Shown here piece by piece: positions 8,928-13,950 of a DNA stretch of 32,719 bases. The position numbers were made by a program, and so were the translations under genes. The DNA is from Acidobacteriaceae bacterium (lineage in GTDB: Bacteria > Acidobacteriota > Terriglobia > Terriglobales > Acidobacteriaceae). Each line of letters starts with the position of its first letter. Position 1 is the first letter of the stretch. The stretch spans positions 4,767-37,485 of the forward strand of contig PKXK01000070.1 in assembly GCA_003132325.1 (NCBI GenBank), read 5' to 3'. Under the pieces are notes generated by a model, which was not told the origin of the DNA, did no database searches, and saw only the letters and a list, made by a program, of their open reading frames with translations.

Positions 8928-10364
8928 CTAATGCAGATCGCCGGGTTCCGGTTCACCCGGTTCGCTGGCCGTCACGCGGGCGCGGACTCGTCCCCGAGCC
9001 AGGCGCGCCGACAACTCATCCCCAGCTTCGAGTCGCGCCGCATCTTTCACCAGCCGGCCTTTCGCGTCGAACACCAGCGCGTACCCCCGATTCAGAATTG
9101 CCACCGGCGAAAGCGCCTCCAGGCTCGCAGCGCGGCGATCCAGCGCCCCGCCGCTCTCCAGCAAACGCCTGCGTATAGCGGCAGCCAGGTTCGCAACTTG
9201 CGCCTCCAGCCCTTGCCGGACAGCCGCCAGACGGCGTCGCGCGTCATAATGGCGGACCGCCGAGGAAACATTCTCCGAACGCCGACGGCATCGCTCCAAA
9301 AGCTGCCGTTCCGCCTTTTCCAACCGGAAGCGCTGTTCATCCAGCTTCTGCTGTCGCCGGTGGATGCCGTCCATCATGCGCGCAAACGCTCCGTGCTGTG
9401 CCCGCTCGGTCAGGTACTGACGCGCCATCAGCAACCGGTAACGCACCGCATGCTCCAATCGCCGGTACAAGTCTTCGGCCTGCGCTTCAATTTCCTGCCG
9501 CGATCGGATCACCAATTCCGCCGCCGCTGAAGGCGTAGGCGCCCGCAGATCGGCGACAAAATCCACGATCGTGAAATCCGTCTCGTGCCCAATCGCCGAA
9601 ATCACCGGGATCTTTGATTCCGCGACCGCCCGAGCCAGGCCCTCGTGATTGAAGCAGGCCAAGTCTTCGGCCGAGCCTCCGCCGCGAGCAATAATAATGA
9701 CTTCGACTGTGCGACTGCCCCGCAAGTCCGGATGCCGCGGTTCCGAATGAAAGTGCGAATGAAAGTACCGCAGCCCGGCCATCACTTCGCCCGCCGCCGA
9801 GTCTCCCTGCACCTGCGCCGGATAGATCAGCACATTCGCCGAGTGATGCCGCCGCGCCAGAACGTTCAGGATGTCGCGCAGCGCCGCCCCCTGCGGCGAA
9901 GTAATAATGCCAATTCGTTGCGGCAACGGCGGAATCGCCTTCTTTCGCGCGGCTTCGAACAGTCCCTCCGCCTGCAATCGTGCCTTCAATTGTTCGAACG
10001 CCAACTGCAGAGCGCCCGCGCCCTTAGGCTCCATGAATTCAGCGGAGATTTGCAGCTCCCCGCGCTCTTCATACACGGTGATGCGCCCGCGAACCGTAAC
10101 GTGCAATCCGTTCTCCGGCCGAAACCGCAGCAGCTTCGCGGAAGATCGAAACATCACCACGCGAATCTGCGCACTCTCTTCCTTCAGGGTGAAATACAGG
10201 TGGCCGGAATCGGGATTACGTAGGTTCGAAATTTCCCCTTCCACCCAGCAATCCGAATACTCGCGCTCGATGTGCGAGCGAACCGCCGAGACCAGCGCCC
10301 GCACCGTCCACACGCGCCGCTCCGCAGGACGAAACTGGAACCCGAGTTGGTCGGTCGCGTCCAT
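8928..10364 (-). CDS. xseA: exodeoxyribonuclease VII large subunit
   Basis: Large subunit of the ATP-independent single-strand-specific exonuclease that degrades ssDNA to oligonucleotides in repair. From the Met at 10364 (MDATDQLGFQF) it has 478 residues, near the family norm. An N-terminal OB-fold (about residues 15-115) carries the typical WVEGEISNLRNPDSGHLYF. The catalytic domain carries GIITSPQGAALRDILNVL, then ARGGGSAEDLACFNHE and ISAIGHETDFTIVDFVADLRAPTPSAAAE, followed by the long coiled-coil region and a C-terminal segment ending in NRGYAL. An in-frame extension to 10475 is possible but not conserved-looking. No small subunit (xseB) is visible next to it, so it must be elsewhere. Confidence 0.96.
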   Translation of the reverse strand: MDATDQLGFQFRPAERRVWTVRALVSAVRSHIEREYSDCWVEGEISNLRNPDSGHLYFTLKEESAQIRVVMFRSSAKLLRFRPENGLHVTVRGRITVYEERGELQISAEFMEPKGAGALQLAFEQLKARLQAEGLFEAARKKAIPPLPQRIGIITSPQGAALRDILNVLARRHHSANVLIYPAQVQGDSAAGEVMAGLRYFHSHFHSEPRHPDLRGSRTVEVIIIARGGGSAEDLACFNHEGLARAVAESKIPVISAIGHETDFTIVDFVADLRAPTPSAAAELVIRSRQEIEAQAEDLYRRLEHAVRYRLLMARQYLTERAQHGAFARMMDGIHRRQQKLDEQRFRLEKAERQLLERCRRRSENVSSAVRHYDARRRLAAVRQGLEAQVANLAAAIRRRLLESGGALDRRAASLEALSPVAILNRGYALVFDAKGRLVKDAARLEAGDELSARLARGRVRARVTASEPGEPEPGDLH

Positions 10365-10550
10365 GAATGCCAAGTTATGAAGCTTCAGTTTACCTTGTGG
10401 CGTAAGTCTATATTGAGATGCCCATGCGTTTGTCGATTTCCGGCTTCGATAAGGGGTCGAATTCTCGTCGCGCAAACTTTTTCTTCAGGGGAGACATTGC
10501 GGAGTGACTTTGGTGCATCGTTCGATGCGCCCGTTTCGATCATTTTTCTC

Positions 10551-10579
10551 TTGACTTCGTTCTGCGTTGACTCTATACA
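10551..10579 (+). promoter_or_regulatory. sigma70-type promoter of the 14-codon unit
   Basis: TTGACT (10551-10556) and TATACA (10574-10579) are separated by exactly 17 bp, close to the vegetative consensus. The predicted start is near 10586, leaving a leader of about 59 nt before the small reading frame at 10645. No other plus-strand gene lies downstream before the terminator. Confidence 0.75.
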
Positions 10580-10644
10580 TTCAAACAGTTGCAACAAAAT
10601 ACCGTTGCGAAATTCCATGAAGAATGGAAAGGGAGAATAGATCC

Positions 10645-10689
10645 ATGGCAACCAAAAAGAAAGCAAAGAAGAAAGCCAAGAAGCACTAG
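10645..10689 (+). CDS. 14-residue Lys/Ala micropeptide
   Basis: A reading frame too short for normal gene callers: MATKKKAKKKAKKH followed by TAG. It has nine lysines, no acidic residues and a histone-tail-like K/A pattern. A purine-rich ribosome binding site (AAAGGGAG at about 10628-10635) precedes the ATG. A vegetative-type promoter lies at 10551-10579 and an intrinsic terminator at 10714-10745, so the whole transcript would be about 160 nt. I do not recognise a named family. It could be a nucleic-acid-binding micropeptide or only an open frame inside a small RNA. It lies between xseA and the helicase gene, both on the other strand, so it is not read-through from a neighbour. Confidence 0.6.
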   Translation: MATKKKAKKKAKKH

Positions 10690-10713
10690 GCAACCCGCAA
10701 CAGGCAACGACCA

Positions 10714-10745
10714 AGGGGACGCGATGAGCGTCCCCTAAGTTTTTT
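10714..10745 (+). terminator. Rho-independent terminator
   Basis: A 9-bp GC-rich stem, AGGGGACGC / GCGTCCCCT, with a 5-nt loop, followed after taag by TTTTTT (10740-10745). It lies 25 nt after the 14-codon frame and is the cleanest intrinsic terminator in the window. Confidence 0.8.
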
Positions 10746-10778
10746 GCGGCGCTTTTCTGCCGGGAAGACGCACTAACC

Positions 10779-10803
10779 GTAGAGACGGGGCTTGCCCCGT
10801 CTC
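10779..10803. repeat. GACGGGGC/GCCCCGTC palindrome
   Basis: 10-bp perfect stem GAGACGGGGC / GCCCCGTCTC (10782-10791 and 10794-10803), preceded by gta. The same core recurs at 27293-27310. Confidence 0.75.
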
Positions 10804-10826
10804 AGACTGCCGATCAACCGCGGTTT

Positions 10827-10900
10827 TTAGGTTTTTGGCAAGGCACGGCTTCAGCCGTGCCGTCAAAAGCCAATAAAGACGGGGGCTTTAGCCCCTGAGG
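10827..10900 (+). repeat. two-hairpin dispersed repeat, copy D
   Basis: First stem GGCACGGCT/AGCCGTGCC (10842-10850, 10853-10861), about 19 nt of linker, then second stem GGGGCT/AGCCCC (10882-10887, 10890-10895). It has the same layout as copies A, B and C, with changed but self-complementary stem sequences. It lies 46 nt beyond the helicase stop on that gene's strand. Confidence 0.75.
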
Positions 10901-10941
10901 GTCCCGGCAGTCTATCCCCTGAGTGCATTACGAGATCGCTT

Positions 10942-13900
10942 CTAGTTCACGCGCGACGCCGATTTCTTCTGCGGACCCGCAACCACTTTCTCCGTCGCCG
11001 GACAAAGATTGCGATAGGGACAAAACGCGCAATGATACTGGGGATTCGGCGAAAACTCTCCCTGCGCGATTCCCTCCGCCACTTTCCGCACCCGCAATTT
11101 CGCCGCTTCCAACTCGCCGTCATTCCGCGTGGTGCAAACCGCCGTATTGTTTTCGAGGTTATAAAAGATCAAGCGGTCGGCGCGCTTTCCAAACGCCTCC
11201 CTCGCCGCCAGCGCATACAACGAAAGTTGCAGGCTCTCATCGGCATCCTCCTGTGACTTCGGCTTGCCCGTCTTGTAGTCCACGATGGCAACCGTCTCCG
11301 CCCCCGTGCGGTCGATACGATCCACGCGTCCAGCCAACTTCGCCGATCCCACTTGCAGTTCAAATCTGCGCTCGGTCTCCAGCACCTCGGGCAGCGGAGC
11401 ATTGCGCGCGCCGTCGAAGAACTGCCGCAACTGCTCCATACCCTGCCGCAGGTACAACTCATACTGATAGCGGTCGGCAATGCCCGCCGAAGCCAAGGCC
11501 GACCGGAACTGTTCAAGCAAATCGTCGTCGCCGATTTCCCGTTGATAGCGCAGCGCGTCGTAGAAGGTACGCAACACTCCGTGCATGGCCGCTCCGTAGT
11601 GCAGTGAGGCGGAGACGTCGCGGGGCAGGTTCCACTCTCGCTCGAGCTTGAAGCGCAGCGGACACTCTTCATAGATCTCAATCGCCGACGCGCTCAGTCC
11701 GGTAACAAAGTTCGCCGAAGGCTCCATGAGCAGCCACCCAGCTACGTTCGATTGCTGCAAGGCGATTCTCTGTTCTTCTTCCGCAAACAAGGTATCCTGC
11801 ACGGCCGCCGCTGAACGCGTGAACCAGAACTTCCGGTAAGCAGGATGAACCATGAACTCGCGCAAAAATTGCGTGGGCTTCGGATCTTTCTTGCCCCTCC
11901 CCTGGTGCGCATAAATCGCCAGCGTGTCCTTGGCGCGCGTCATGGCCACGTAGAAAAGGCGCCGCTCTTCTTCTTCGTGCAGCGTTTTGTCGTCGCGCGC
12001 GCGTGTGTCAGAAGGCGTGTCGAAAGAAGAAGCGTTCGACCAGCGCAGCTCCGCCGGAAACGCAACCAGCGGCTCCCGGTAGGCCATTGGGAACCAGGCT
12101 GAAGAACCGCGAAAGATGGCGACGTGACGGAACTCAAGCCCCTTGGCGGCATGCGCGGTCAAAAGCTGCACCGCGTCGTCCGCACTGCGCGGCAGCGCGA
12201 TCGTGCCTTTCGCCTGTACAAAATAATCGAGGTACTCGAGAAATTCGGAAGGGCTCCCAGTTTCGGCGATGGCTTTCTTGTGCCACGCTTCCACAAACTT
12301 CAGAAACGCACCGGCCAGCGCCGACCGCTCCAGCCCAAAATGGCGGATCACAAGCTTCACCGCATCGTCCGCGCGAACTCCGTCCTTCCTCACTTCCCCG
12401 TGCACCTTCTCGACACTTTCCAGCACCGCCGCGCCCTTCGGCAATCGTCCCAGCACCGTGCGCAGATCGAGTTCCTGACGCCGCACGGCCCTCATCGCCG
12501 CCCGCAATTCCACTGGGTCGATGCCGAACTGGGGCAGCGCCGCCACGCGAAACAGGCTGGCAGCATCATTCGGAGACACCGCCGCGGTCAGGCAAGCCAC
12601 CACGTCGCGGACCTCGGCCGTGTCGAGCACGTCCAGTCCTTCGATGGAGAATGGAATGCCCCGCTCGGCAAGTTCATGAACCAGTTCATCGCGATGGCGG
12701 TGCTGGCGATACAGCACGGCAAAATCGCTCCACGCACAGCGCTGGTCTTTATCCTTATCCTTACGCTTCTTCTGGATGCGCCGAGCCAGGTCGGCGGCCT
12801 CCACTTCTTTATCTCTCCAAGTAACAATCTCGACCGGCGGCGCGGCCGCGGTCTCGCCTCGCTGCTTCGCCTCCTCGTCGCGCAGCGATTCCAGAGGAGT
12901 CCGTTGGTAGGAAATTGAGATCTCCTTGTGCGAGAGCGCTTGCCCGAATACCGGAGGATTGTCGTTCACCATGCCAAAAGCGCATCGCAGAATCGGCAAG
13001 AGCGAACGCCGATTCTTCCCCAGCACAACGACTCGCGCCGAGGGAAAATTCCTCGCGAACAGCGTGAACGCCTCGCTCGACGCGCCGCGAAACTGATAGA
13101 TCGCCTGATCCGGATCGCCCACCGCAAAAACGTTCGCCGCCGAACTGGCAAGTAGCGAGAGAATTTCAACCTGGGCAAAATTCGCGTCCTGAAATTCATC
13201 GACCAGCACGAAGCGCGTACGGAGCCGTTCTTCCTCGAGCAACGTGGGATCGTCCTTCAGCAACCGATGGGCCTTGGCGATCATGTGACCGAAGGTGCCC
13301 AGGTTTTTCTCCCGAAGCATATTTTCCACGGTAGCGAAAACGCGAGCGATTTCCTGGCAGCGTTCGAGAATCTCGCGTTCTTCCAAATCCGCCTGATTTT
13401 TCGACTTGGCAACGCGAGGCAAAGGGATCTCGCCGCGCTCAAGACGCTCGACATAGCGCGCATATTCTTCGGGACCGACCAGTTCGTCCTGGCAACGGCG
13501 CATGAAATCGAGCAGGCTGTCGAGGAACTGTCCGACGTTGGCGGCGCGCACAAAGTGCTTCAGGCGCAGATCGCGAATACGCCGGCGCAAAAACACCCGC
13601 AGATCTTTATCGTCGAGCACGCCAAAACCAGCGCCGCGACGCTGCAGCAATCCGTAACACCAGGCGTGGAACGTGCAGGCCTGCAAGCCGTCGATGGCGG
13701 TGCCCTTCAATTCTCCCTGCACGCGCGCCAGCATCTCCGCGGCCGAATTATCGGTATAGGTGAGGGCAAGAATTTCGTCAGGGCGGGCGTGGCCTTCGCG
13801 AATCAGATTGGCCACGCGCTGCGTGAGCACGGTAGTCTTCCCGGTGCCAGCGCCGGCGATCACCAGCATCGGGCCATCCAGATGTTCGATGGCTTGCCGC

Positions 13901-13950
13901 TGCCGCTCATCGGGAATGATCTTCGTCGCAGGTAAAACAGTGGACGCCAC
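10942..13950 (-). CDS. UvrD-type helicase fused to RecB-type nuclease
   Basis: A 1002-residue superfamily 1A DNA helicase with a C-terminal PD-(D/E)XK nuclease, likely a DNA repair/end-processing enzyme. The helicase motifs are complete: Q-motif DERQRQAIEH (14-23), Walker A GAGTGKTT (33-40), motif II VLVDEFQDA, motif III VGDPDQAIYQFRGA, motif V LLTAHAAKGLEFRHV and motif VI RRLFYVAMTRAKD. The nuclease shows GRVDRID and IVDYKTGK (RecB-like). One cysteine (YEECPLRF) plus the C-terminal cluster CAFCPYRNLC suggests the AddB/Cas4-type iron-sulfur cluster. The GTG start at 13950 is used because no ATG precedes motif I. There is no AddB or RecC-like partner nearby. I leave the symbol blank because UvrD, PcrA and AddA names do not fit cleanly. 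Confidence 0.93.
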   Translation of the reverse strand: MASTVLPATKIIPDERQRQAIEHLDGPMLVIAGAGTGKTTVLTQRVANLIREGHARPDEILALTYTDNSAAEMLARVQGELKGTAIDGLQACTFHAWCYGLLQRRGAGFGVLDDKDLRVFLRRRIRDLRLKHFVRAANVGQFLDSLLDFMRRCQDELVGPEEYARYVERLERGEIPLPRVAKSKNQADLEEREILERCQEIARVFATVENMLREKNLGTFGHMIAKAHRLLKDDPTLLEEERLRTRFVLVDEFQDANFAQVEILSLLASSAANVFAVGDPDQAIYQFRGASSEAFTLFARNFPSARVVVLGKNRRSLLPILRCAFGMVNDNPPVFGQALSHKEISISYQRTPLESLRDEEAKQRGETAAAPPVEIVTWRDKEVEAADLARRIQKKRKDKDKDQRCAWSDFAVLYRQHRHRDELVHELAERGIPFSIEGLDVLDTAEVRDVVACLTAAVSPNDAASLFRVAALPQFGIDPVELRAAMRAVRRQELDLRTVLGRLPKGAAVLESVEKVHGEVRKDGVRADDAVKLVIRHFGLERSALAGAFLKFVEAWHKKAIAETGSPSEFLEYLDYFVQAKGTIALPRSADDAVQLLTAHAAKGLEFRHVAIFRGSSAWFPMAYREPLVAFPAELRWSNASSFDTPSDTRARDDKTLHEEEERRLFYVAMTRAKDTLAIYAHQGRGKKDPKPTQFLREFMVHPAYRKFWFTRSAAAVQDTLFAEEEQRIALQQSNVAGWLLMEPSANFVTGLSASAIEIYEECPLRFKLEREWNLPRDVSASLHYGAAMHGVLRTFYDALRYQREIGDDDLLEQFRSALASAGIADRYQYELYLRQGMEQLRQFFDGARNAPLPEVLETERRFELQVGSAKLAGRVDRIDRTGAETVAIVDYKTGKPKSQEDADESLQLSLYALAAREAFGKRADRLIFYNLENNTAVCTTRNDGELEAAKLRVRKVAEGIAQGEFSPNPQYHCAFCPYRNLCPATEKVVAGPQKKSASRVN

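Follow-up and report, generated by a model that had tools for sequence, protein, structure and literature searches.

A conserved free-standing lysine/alanine micropeptide gene in Acidobacteriaceae, a candidate detached histone H1-like tail

Can an open reading frame of 14 codons be a protein gene in its own right, and if so, what might its product do? The question is raised by a short unit in a 32,719-nucleotide stretch of DNA from an Acidobacteriaceae bacterium (contig PKXK01000070.1), which as a whole we call the window. An earlier note, made from the letters of this DNA, had described a TTGACT-N17-TATACA promoter, a short sequence ahead of the ATG, a 14-codon frame, a 9-bp stem and a T-run, and all of these can be read directly at 10551-10745, within the following set of features:

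10504-10516, plus strand: conserved upstream element GTGACTTTGGTGC, with GACTTT(G/A)GT in 20 of 21 aligned loci of the genus
10551-10579, plus strand: promoter TTGACT-N17-TATACA, read directly (-35 box TTGACT 10551-10556, -10 box TATACA 10574-10579)
10586-10644, plus strand: 5' leader, its start placed from the promoter at about 7 nt past the -10 box
10590-10609, plus strand: leader hairpin 1, six pairs, arms 10590-10595 and 10604-10609
10613-10629, plus strand: leader hairpin 2, arms 10613-10618 and 10624-10629 in the window sequence
10628-10635, plus strand: ribosome-binding site AAAGGGAG, of which AAGGGAG is invariant in a 30-sequence alignment
10645-10689, plus strand: open reading frame of 14 codons, MATKKKAKKKAKKH, from ATG at 10645 to a TAG stop ending at 10689
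10714-10745, plus strand: intrinsic terminator, 9-bp stem 10714-10736 and T6 at 10740-10745

Lysine accounts for eight of the 14 codons, the -10 box lies 65 nt from the ATG, and the trailer between stop and stem measures 24 nt. The neighbouring genes are on the minus strand, again as the note had it. Exonuclease VII large subunit lies divergently upstream (8928-10475) and a UvrD helicase/PD-(D/E)XK nuclease convergently downstream (10942-13950). A longer product of 21 residues, starting at the in-frame ATG at 10624, was considered and rejected; an open in-frame ATG upstream is present in just 46 of the 88 loci compared below, so that 10645 is the better start. The GTGACTTTGGTGC element, a possible regulator site, is not general in the family beyond the genus. 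Rfam gave no matches in the window above gathering score. At 10780-10900, beyond the terminator but before the convergent gene, lie the short palindromes GGGGCTTGCCCC, CGGCTTCAGCCG and GGGGCTTTAGCCCC, each occurring once in the window, which look like REP-type repeats.

With up to one mismatch allowed, the promoter core ACTCTATACATTCA and the terminator stem GGGGACGC-N5-GCGTCCCC each occur at a single site in the assembled genome (5.3 Mb in 305 contigs, 93.5% complete), namely at the window unit. A promoter shared by a regulon was rejected, since the core occurs only once. A generic promoter scan of 9500-12000 did not list the unit's promoter, because TATACA lacks the final T demanded by the scan rule; this absence is answered by conservation, TTGAC[A/T]-N17-TATA being present in 86 of the 88 loci, with a spacer of 17 in all 86 (the promoter is unassigned in L012 and L228).

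An initial search matched the DNA of the unit in 34 of 61 genomes, and in 22 of 24 within the genus. A covariance model built from 30 leader-plus-ORF sequences matches 229 of 300 family genomes, representing 74 of 79 genera, and 161 of the 207 well-assembled ones; the remaining 71 of the 300 gave no match. All 40 stretches fetched from model matches contain a short lysine-rich frame after the same leader layout. The comparisons that follow use 88 loci: 30 in a first set (29 from the DNA search plus L049, found with the pattern MA[T/A]KKKA), the 40 model matches, and 18 of 27 further loci. Excluded from the first set were L002 (a second unit, see below), L024 (cut by a contig end) and L053 (the same place as a covariance-model match); excluded from the 27 were the second-type units L272 and L274, L278-L280, where lysine-rich frames follow other leaders, and L275, L276, L277 and L281, which have no short lysine-rich frame.

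None of the 88 loci has a broken frame, and the encoded peptides have 12 to 32 residues, 64 of them being distinct. As the probes themselves contained the ORF, the presence of an A-rich frame in these loci is in part a product of selection, but intact frames and codon-position bias are free of this effect. By parsimony, the four near-invariant lysine codons have undergone 4, 6 and 77 changes at first, second and third positions respectively, that is, 77 of 87 inferred changes are at third positions, on a tree drawn from promoter and leader of the same locus rather than from an independent gene. Across all eight codons compared the figures are 32, 18 and 140, and the first-position changes are largely Thr/Ala swaps at codon 3. 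The lysine codons are therefore under selection. The earlier note had offered substitution without synonymous bias as grounds for abandoning the frame, and the opposite was found; of its two suggestions, a nucleic-acid-binding micropeptide or a small RNA with a decoy frame, the translated micropeptide survives, while a mere decoy becomes very unlikely given the codon-position bias. In addition, ORF length varies among the compared loci by whole codons, whereas leader and trailer lengths vary by single bases.

The other parts of the unit are conserved alongside the frame. In 79 of the 88 loci the stop is followed by a terminator-like hairpin (by the rule used there is none in L247, L248, L251, L252, L254, L261, L262, L265 and L270), and the distance from -10 box to ATG ranges from 48 to 68 nt. 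Sharing of promoter, leader, ORF and terminator across loci indicates that the parts have been inherited together. We regard it as nearly certain, from these sequence comparisons, that the unit is a real gene and that it is translated. A protein gene that stands alone and is conserved by vertical descent can thus be as short as 11-15 codons, and so be missed on length alone, and yet have a constant promoter, a leader that covaries and a terminator; to our knowledge, genes of the window type are among the shortest self-standing protein genes known.

Does the unit serve a neighbouring gene? Downstream of the unit, the longest ORF runs on the opposite strand in 66 of the 88 loci and on the same strand in 21; one locus has no ORF there. 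In the first set, 26 of 30 loci have the convergent helicase/nuclease gene after the unit, as do 27 of the other 58; where the neighbours change, the form of the unit stays. The comparison bears out the earlier suggestion of an independent short transcription unit. Amino-acid attenuator leader peptides of the trpL/hisL kind are also about 14 codons long, with a run of a single amino acid and a terminator past the ORF. They differ in that window-type loci mostly lack a co-directional gene and in that the peptide here is kept through synonymous change. The regulated gene on the same strand that an attenuator calls for was not found downstream in most loci, and the preponderance of opposite-strand ORFs speaks against a leader of this sort, which we rejected.

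The leader itself nevertheless has features of a structured RNA. Both hairpins covary. On an alignment of the 88 loci fitted to the structure, which favours pairing, four of the six pairs of hairpin 1 show changes on both sides, with 96.3% of cells paired, as do all four inner pairs counted in hairpin 2 (97.4%); over the ten pairs together, 96.8% of cells are standard and eight pairs have changed on both sides. None of 500 shuffles attains the observed values, and sliding the partners by 1-3 columns reduces pairing to 18.6-50.3%. The narrower 30-sequence set has double changes in just two of the ten pairs. By eye, stem 1 goes from GCAAC/GTTGC to GCAGC/GCTGC in distant genera, and stem 2 from CCATG/CATGG to CGATG/CATCG. 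Long-range pairing between leader and trailer, seen in a single-sequence fold, was set aside because the trailer's GCAAC repeats are missing from many loci outside the genus. These covarying hairpins, the conserved terminator stem that is unique in the genome, and the lysine content of the frame (eight codons in 14) might suggest that RNA is the main product, either as a lysine-rich leader peptide sensing charged tRNA-Lys by attenuation or as a dual-function small RNA. However, what is conserved is the peptide sequence and not codon identity, and the orientation of downstream genes given above fits poorly with attenuation; we give such a regulatory RNA a low probability.

If the peptide is the product, its composition offers the main clue to function. 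The 88 peptides average 56% lysine, 27% alanine and 2% proline, contain no acidic or aromatic residues, and consist almost wholly of K, A, T, H, S, P and G with a few V. Comparison between loci fixes the product, as far as sequences can, as a polycation under selection, transcribed on its own and translated, with a predicted net charge of about +8. The low-complexity K/A(/P) sequence and strong positive charge of histone H1-like tails are found throughout the 88. The earlier remark on likeness to a histone tail is borne out by longer relatives in deeper genera, where the same unit encodes 22-30 residue peptides of the KKAAKKAPAKKA type. Bacterial histone H1-like proteins (Hc2/HctB, PF07382, and NF038053 of Burkholderiales) have a similar lysine/alanine-rich, disordered-looking polycationic tail, but are far longer (models of 194 and 195 positions), whereas here a gene encodes nothing but the tail.

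Given the peptide's composition and its likeness to H1-type tails, nucleic-acid neutralisation is the most economical reading. We propose, with about an even chance of being right, that the product would bind nucleic acid as a polycation, a "detached histone-H1 tail" in minimal form. On this proposal, transcription from the unit's own promoter would give a short mRNA with two hairpins in its leader and closed by a terminator; its translation product would be a lysine/alanine polycation, of 14 residues in the window and 11-32 in relatives. The peptide would act in trans as a disordered polycation, neutralising and bridging nucleic acid (nucleoid DNA, possibly RNA), alongside a longer H1-like protein made in that cell. 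We infer strong expression, nucleic-acid binding and a role in compaction. Such a gene would provide a natural minimal system in which the role of a lysine-rich H1-type tail could be seen without any folded domain.

Several observations count against the H1-tail proposal. The short forms stay below the curated cut-off of 40 bits for Hc2 (PF07382), do not match NF038053 (curated cut-off 80 bits) and find nothing above cut-off in NCBIfam; in Pfam, forms of 21-30 residues match nothing, the 14-mer being too short to scan. A 50-residue relative scores 12.9 bits against PF07382 and 14.7 against NF038053, and of the long relatives scanned only L055 exceeds the PF07382 cut-off (41.8 bits); it is an ORF of 126 residues in a different family of the phylum. 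Lysine/alanine sequence also converges easily, so that likeness to long proteins need not mean homology, and 71 of the 300 family genomes give no match to the model.

Antimicrobial or toxic activity would be another use for a short, cationic, secreted peptide. A product composed almost only of K, A, T, H, S, P and G, with no signal- or membrane-like stretch and encoded in most genera of a family, makes this highly improbable. A further candidate role is that of counter-ion to polyphosphate or to polyanions in general, the peptide organising polyphosphate granules or serving as a lysine store instead of binding DNA. Precedent comes from AlgP of Pseudomonas aeruginosa, an H1-like protein whose lysine/alanine-rich C-terminal tail of KPAA repeats binds polyanions there, and which associates with polyphosphate granules and spaces them, according to its description (PMC9239181). 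AlgP has 352 residues including an N-terminal domain, whereas window-type peptides have no other domain. Nothing at the locus points to polyphosphate, the Pfam-named neighbours being DNA-repair genes, and we consider this role unlikely, but a live rival given that AlgP shows an H1-like tail serving such granules.

The very short basic ribosomal proteins THX and eL41 resemble the peptide in being tiny, basic and the single product of their genes, and a ribosome-associated mini-protein sitting on rRNA would fit the size, the charge and the possession of an own gene. Lysine/alanine tails of the same kind lend this idea some weight: in genomes without the unit, one ends ribosomal protein uL29 (L309, in a related genome) and another ends the ribosome silencing factor RsfS (L334), while L306 has, by likeness, a K/A-rich tail of the same sort. 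Such tails are thus not confined to nucleoid-type proteins, which slightly raises the ribosomal explanation and counts to that extent against the H1-tail proposal. On the other hand, both length (12-32 residues) and sequence vary beyond what would be expected of an rRNA-fitted peptide, and the 21-30 residue forms differ from THX and eL41 in having no Pfam sequence match, ribosomal families included. We judge the ribosomal role unlikely.

Returning to the detached H1-type tail, a possible connection to longer proteins emerged from ten family genomes without a convincing unit, which were searched for KKAAKKA. In eight of the ten there is an ORF of about 214-341 codons whose N-terminal part is acidic and whose C-terminal part is rich in K/A, and in these eight the last C-terminal module starts with LATKKA; two genomes with the free unit also carry a long protein with this module. 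The leucine of LATKKA is encoded by TTG in 10 of 10 DNAs read (L307, L308, L310-L314, L317, L353 and L354), and this TTG is preceded by a purine-rich stretch, for example AGAGGT or GAGGAAAA. The arrangement points to initiation inside the gene or to a past fusion, a lead drawn from sequences of related genomes. The long acidic/basic protein encoded in the window's own genome (L384, about 144 residues) lacks LATKKA. Two of the long acidic/basic proteins were scanned, with no Pfam match above cut-off.

A more elaborate conjecture would join these threads. A free, trans-acting histone tail of 11-32 residues would have its own gene across much of the phylum; the covarying leader would be the peptide's own RNA target, giving autoregulated translation by which the level of polycation tunes the nucleoid; and genera without the free gene would make the tail from an internal TTG start in a long H1-like gene. 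We set this out as speculation that is, on balance, more apt to be wrong than right by a clear measure. The link to long H1-like proteins, the covarying hairpins and the second unit described below all go beyond the earlier note.

How novel is such a gene? Lysine-rich H1-like proteins are already known from bacteria, whereas a tail-only gene so short and so conserved was not found in the literature searched. That no earlier description of the gene was found is a weak negative, peptide sequences being poorly indexed and the search having excluded preprints.

Much of one Acidobacteriota family carries the unit, as does part of the class to which that family belongs. Of 200 genomes sampled from the class, 48 match the model, 31 within the family and 17 outside; 14 of the latter 17 were fetched, and each has a short lysine-rich ORF, with an ambiguous start in L287 and L297. 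Peptides in one such family (f5) have 11-12 residues (MAAKKKAKKKR), mostly behind a promoter TTGACAAG..TATACAT. The MA[T/A]KKKA pattern is matched in 36 of 396 genomes of the phylum; of its 30 readable loci, 15 hold a stand-alone ORF of 12-31 residues, and the other 15 hold longer ORFs, among which are many unrelated proteins. In families f65 and f74, four loci combine a promoter region resembling TTGACAC..TATATTCG with a terminator of the form GGGGACGCC..GGCGTCCCC.

The window's genome also carries a second unit, MATKKKAAKKKKH, in L002 (G000:C51:42046-42090), with a different leader and terminator. Alignment of 24 second-type rows, 23 of them distinct and L002 included, shows a conserved leader, AAATCGTTCAAACGGAGG, and a terminator, AGCCTCTCAGGAGAAGCACCTCTTGAGAGGC, that are proper to this type. 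Two members of the genus, G006 (75% complete) and G020 (96%), have the second unit, and the first was not found in them. Elsewhere in the window's genome, L034 (G000:C236:16656-16673, minus strand) lies in a 49-residue ORF that starts MAVKKKAKKKSLKKK, has a Cys/His-containing end and has no Pfam match.

A scan of named genomes gave at least 119 loci. Among the matches listed, at least 76 have an in-frame ORF of up to 30 residues, and at least 63 of the ORFs have 11 or more residues and 45% or more lysine; at least 56 of those 63 are preceded by a sequence like a ribosome-binding site, and at least 27 have a terminator-like hairpin as well. By title, the window-type carriers among the matches listed are Acidobacteriaceae and Terriglobia MAGs (L083, L104, L114 and L128), and Candidatus Sulfotelmatobacter (L141) has a second-type unit. 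Similar stand-alone lysine/alanine micro-ORFs are also present in other phyla among the matches listed, so genes of this kind may be common across phyla, a likeness in kind that does not imply homology. Seven loci (L073, L096, L119, L129, L134, L152 and L181), three of them titled Reyranella, encode MAAKKKAAKKKAAKKKKQ (ending ..KKI in L073) after a near-identical leader CTAACCATAGGAGACAGT; judged by these sequences, they are a further lineage in which a stand-alone lysine micropeptide is conserved.
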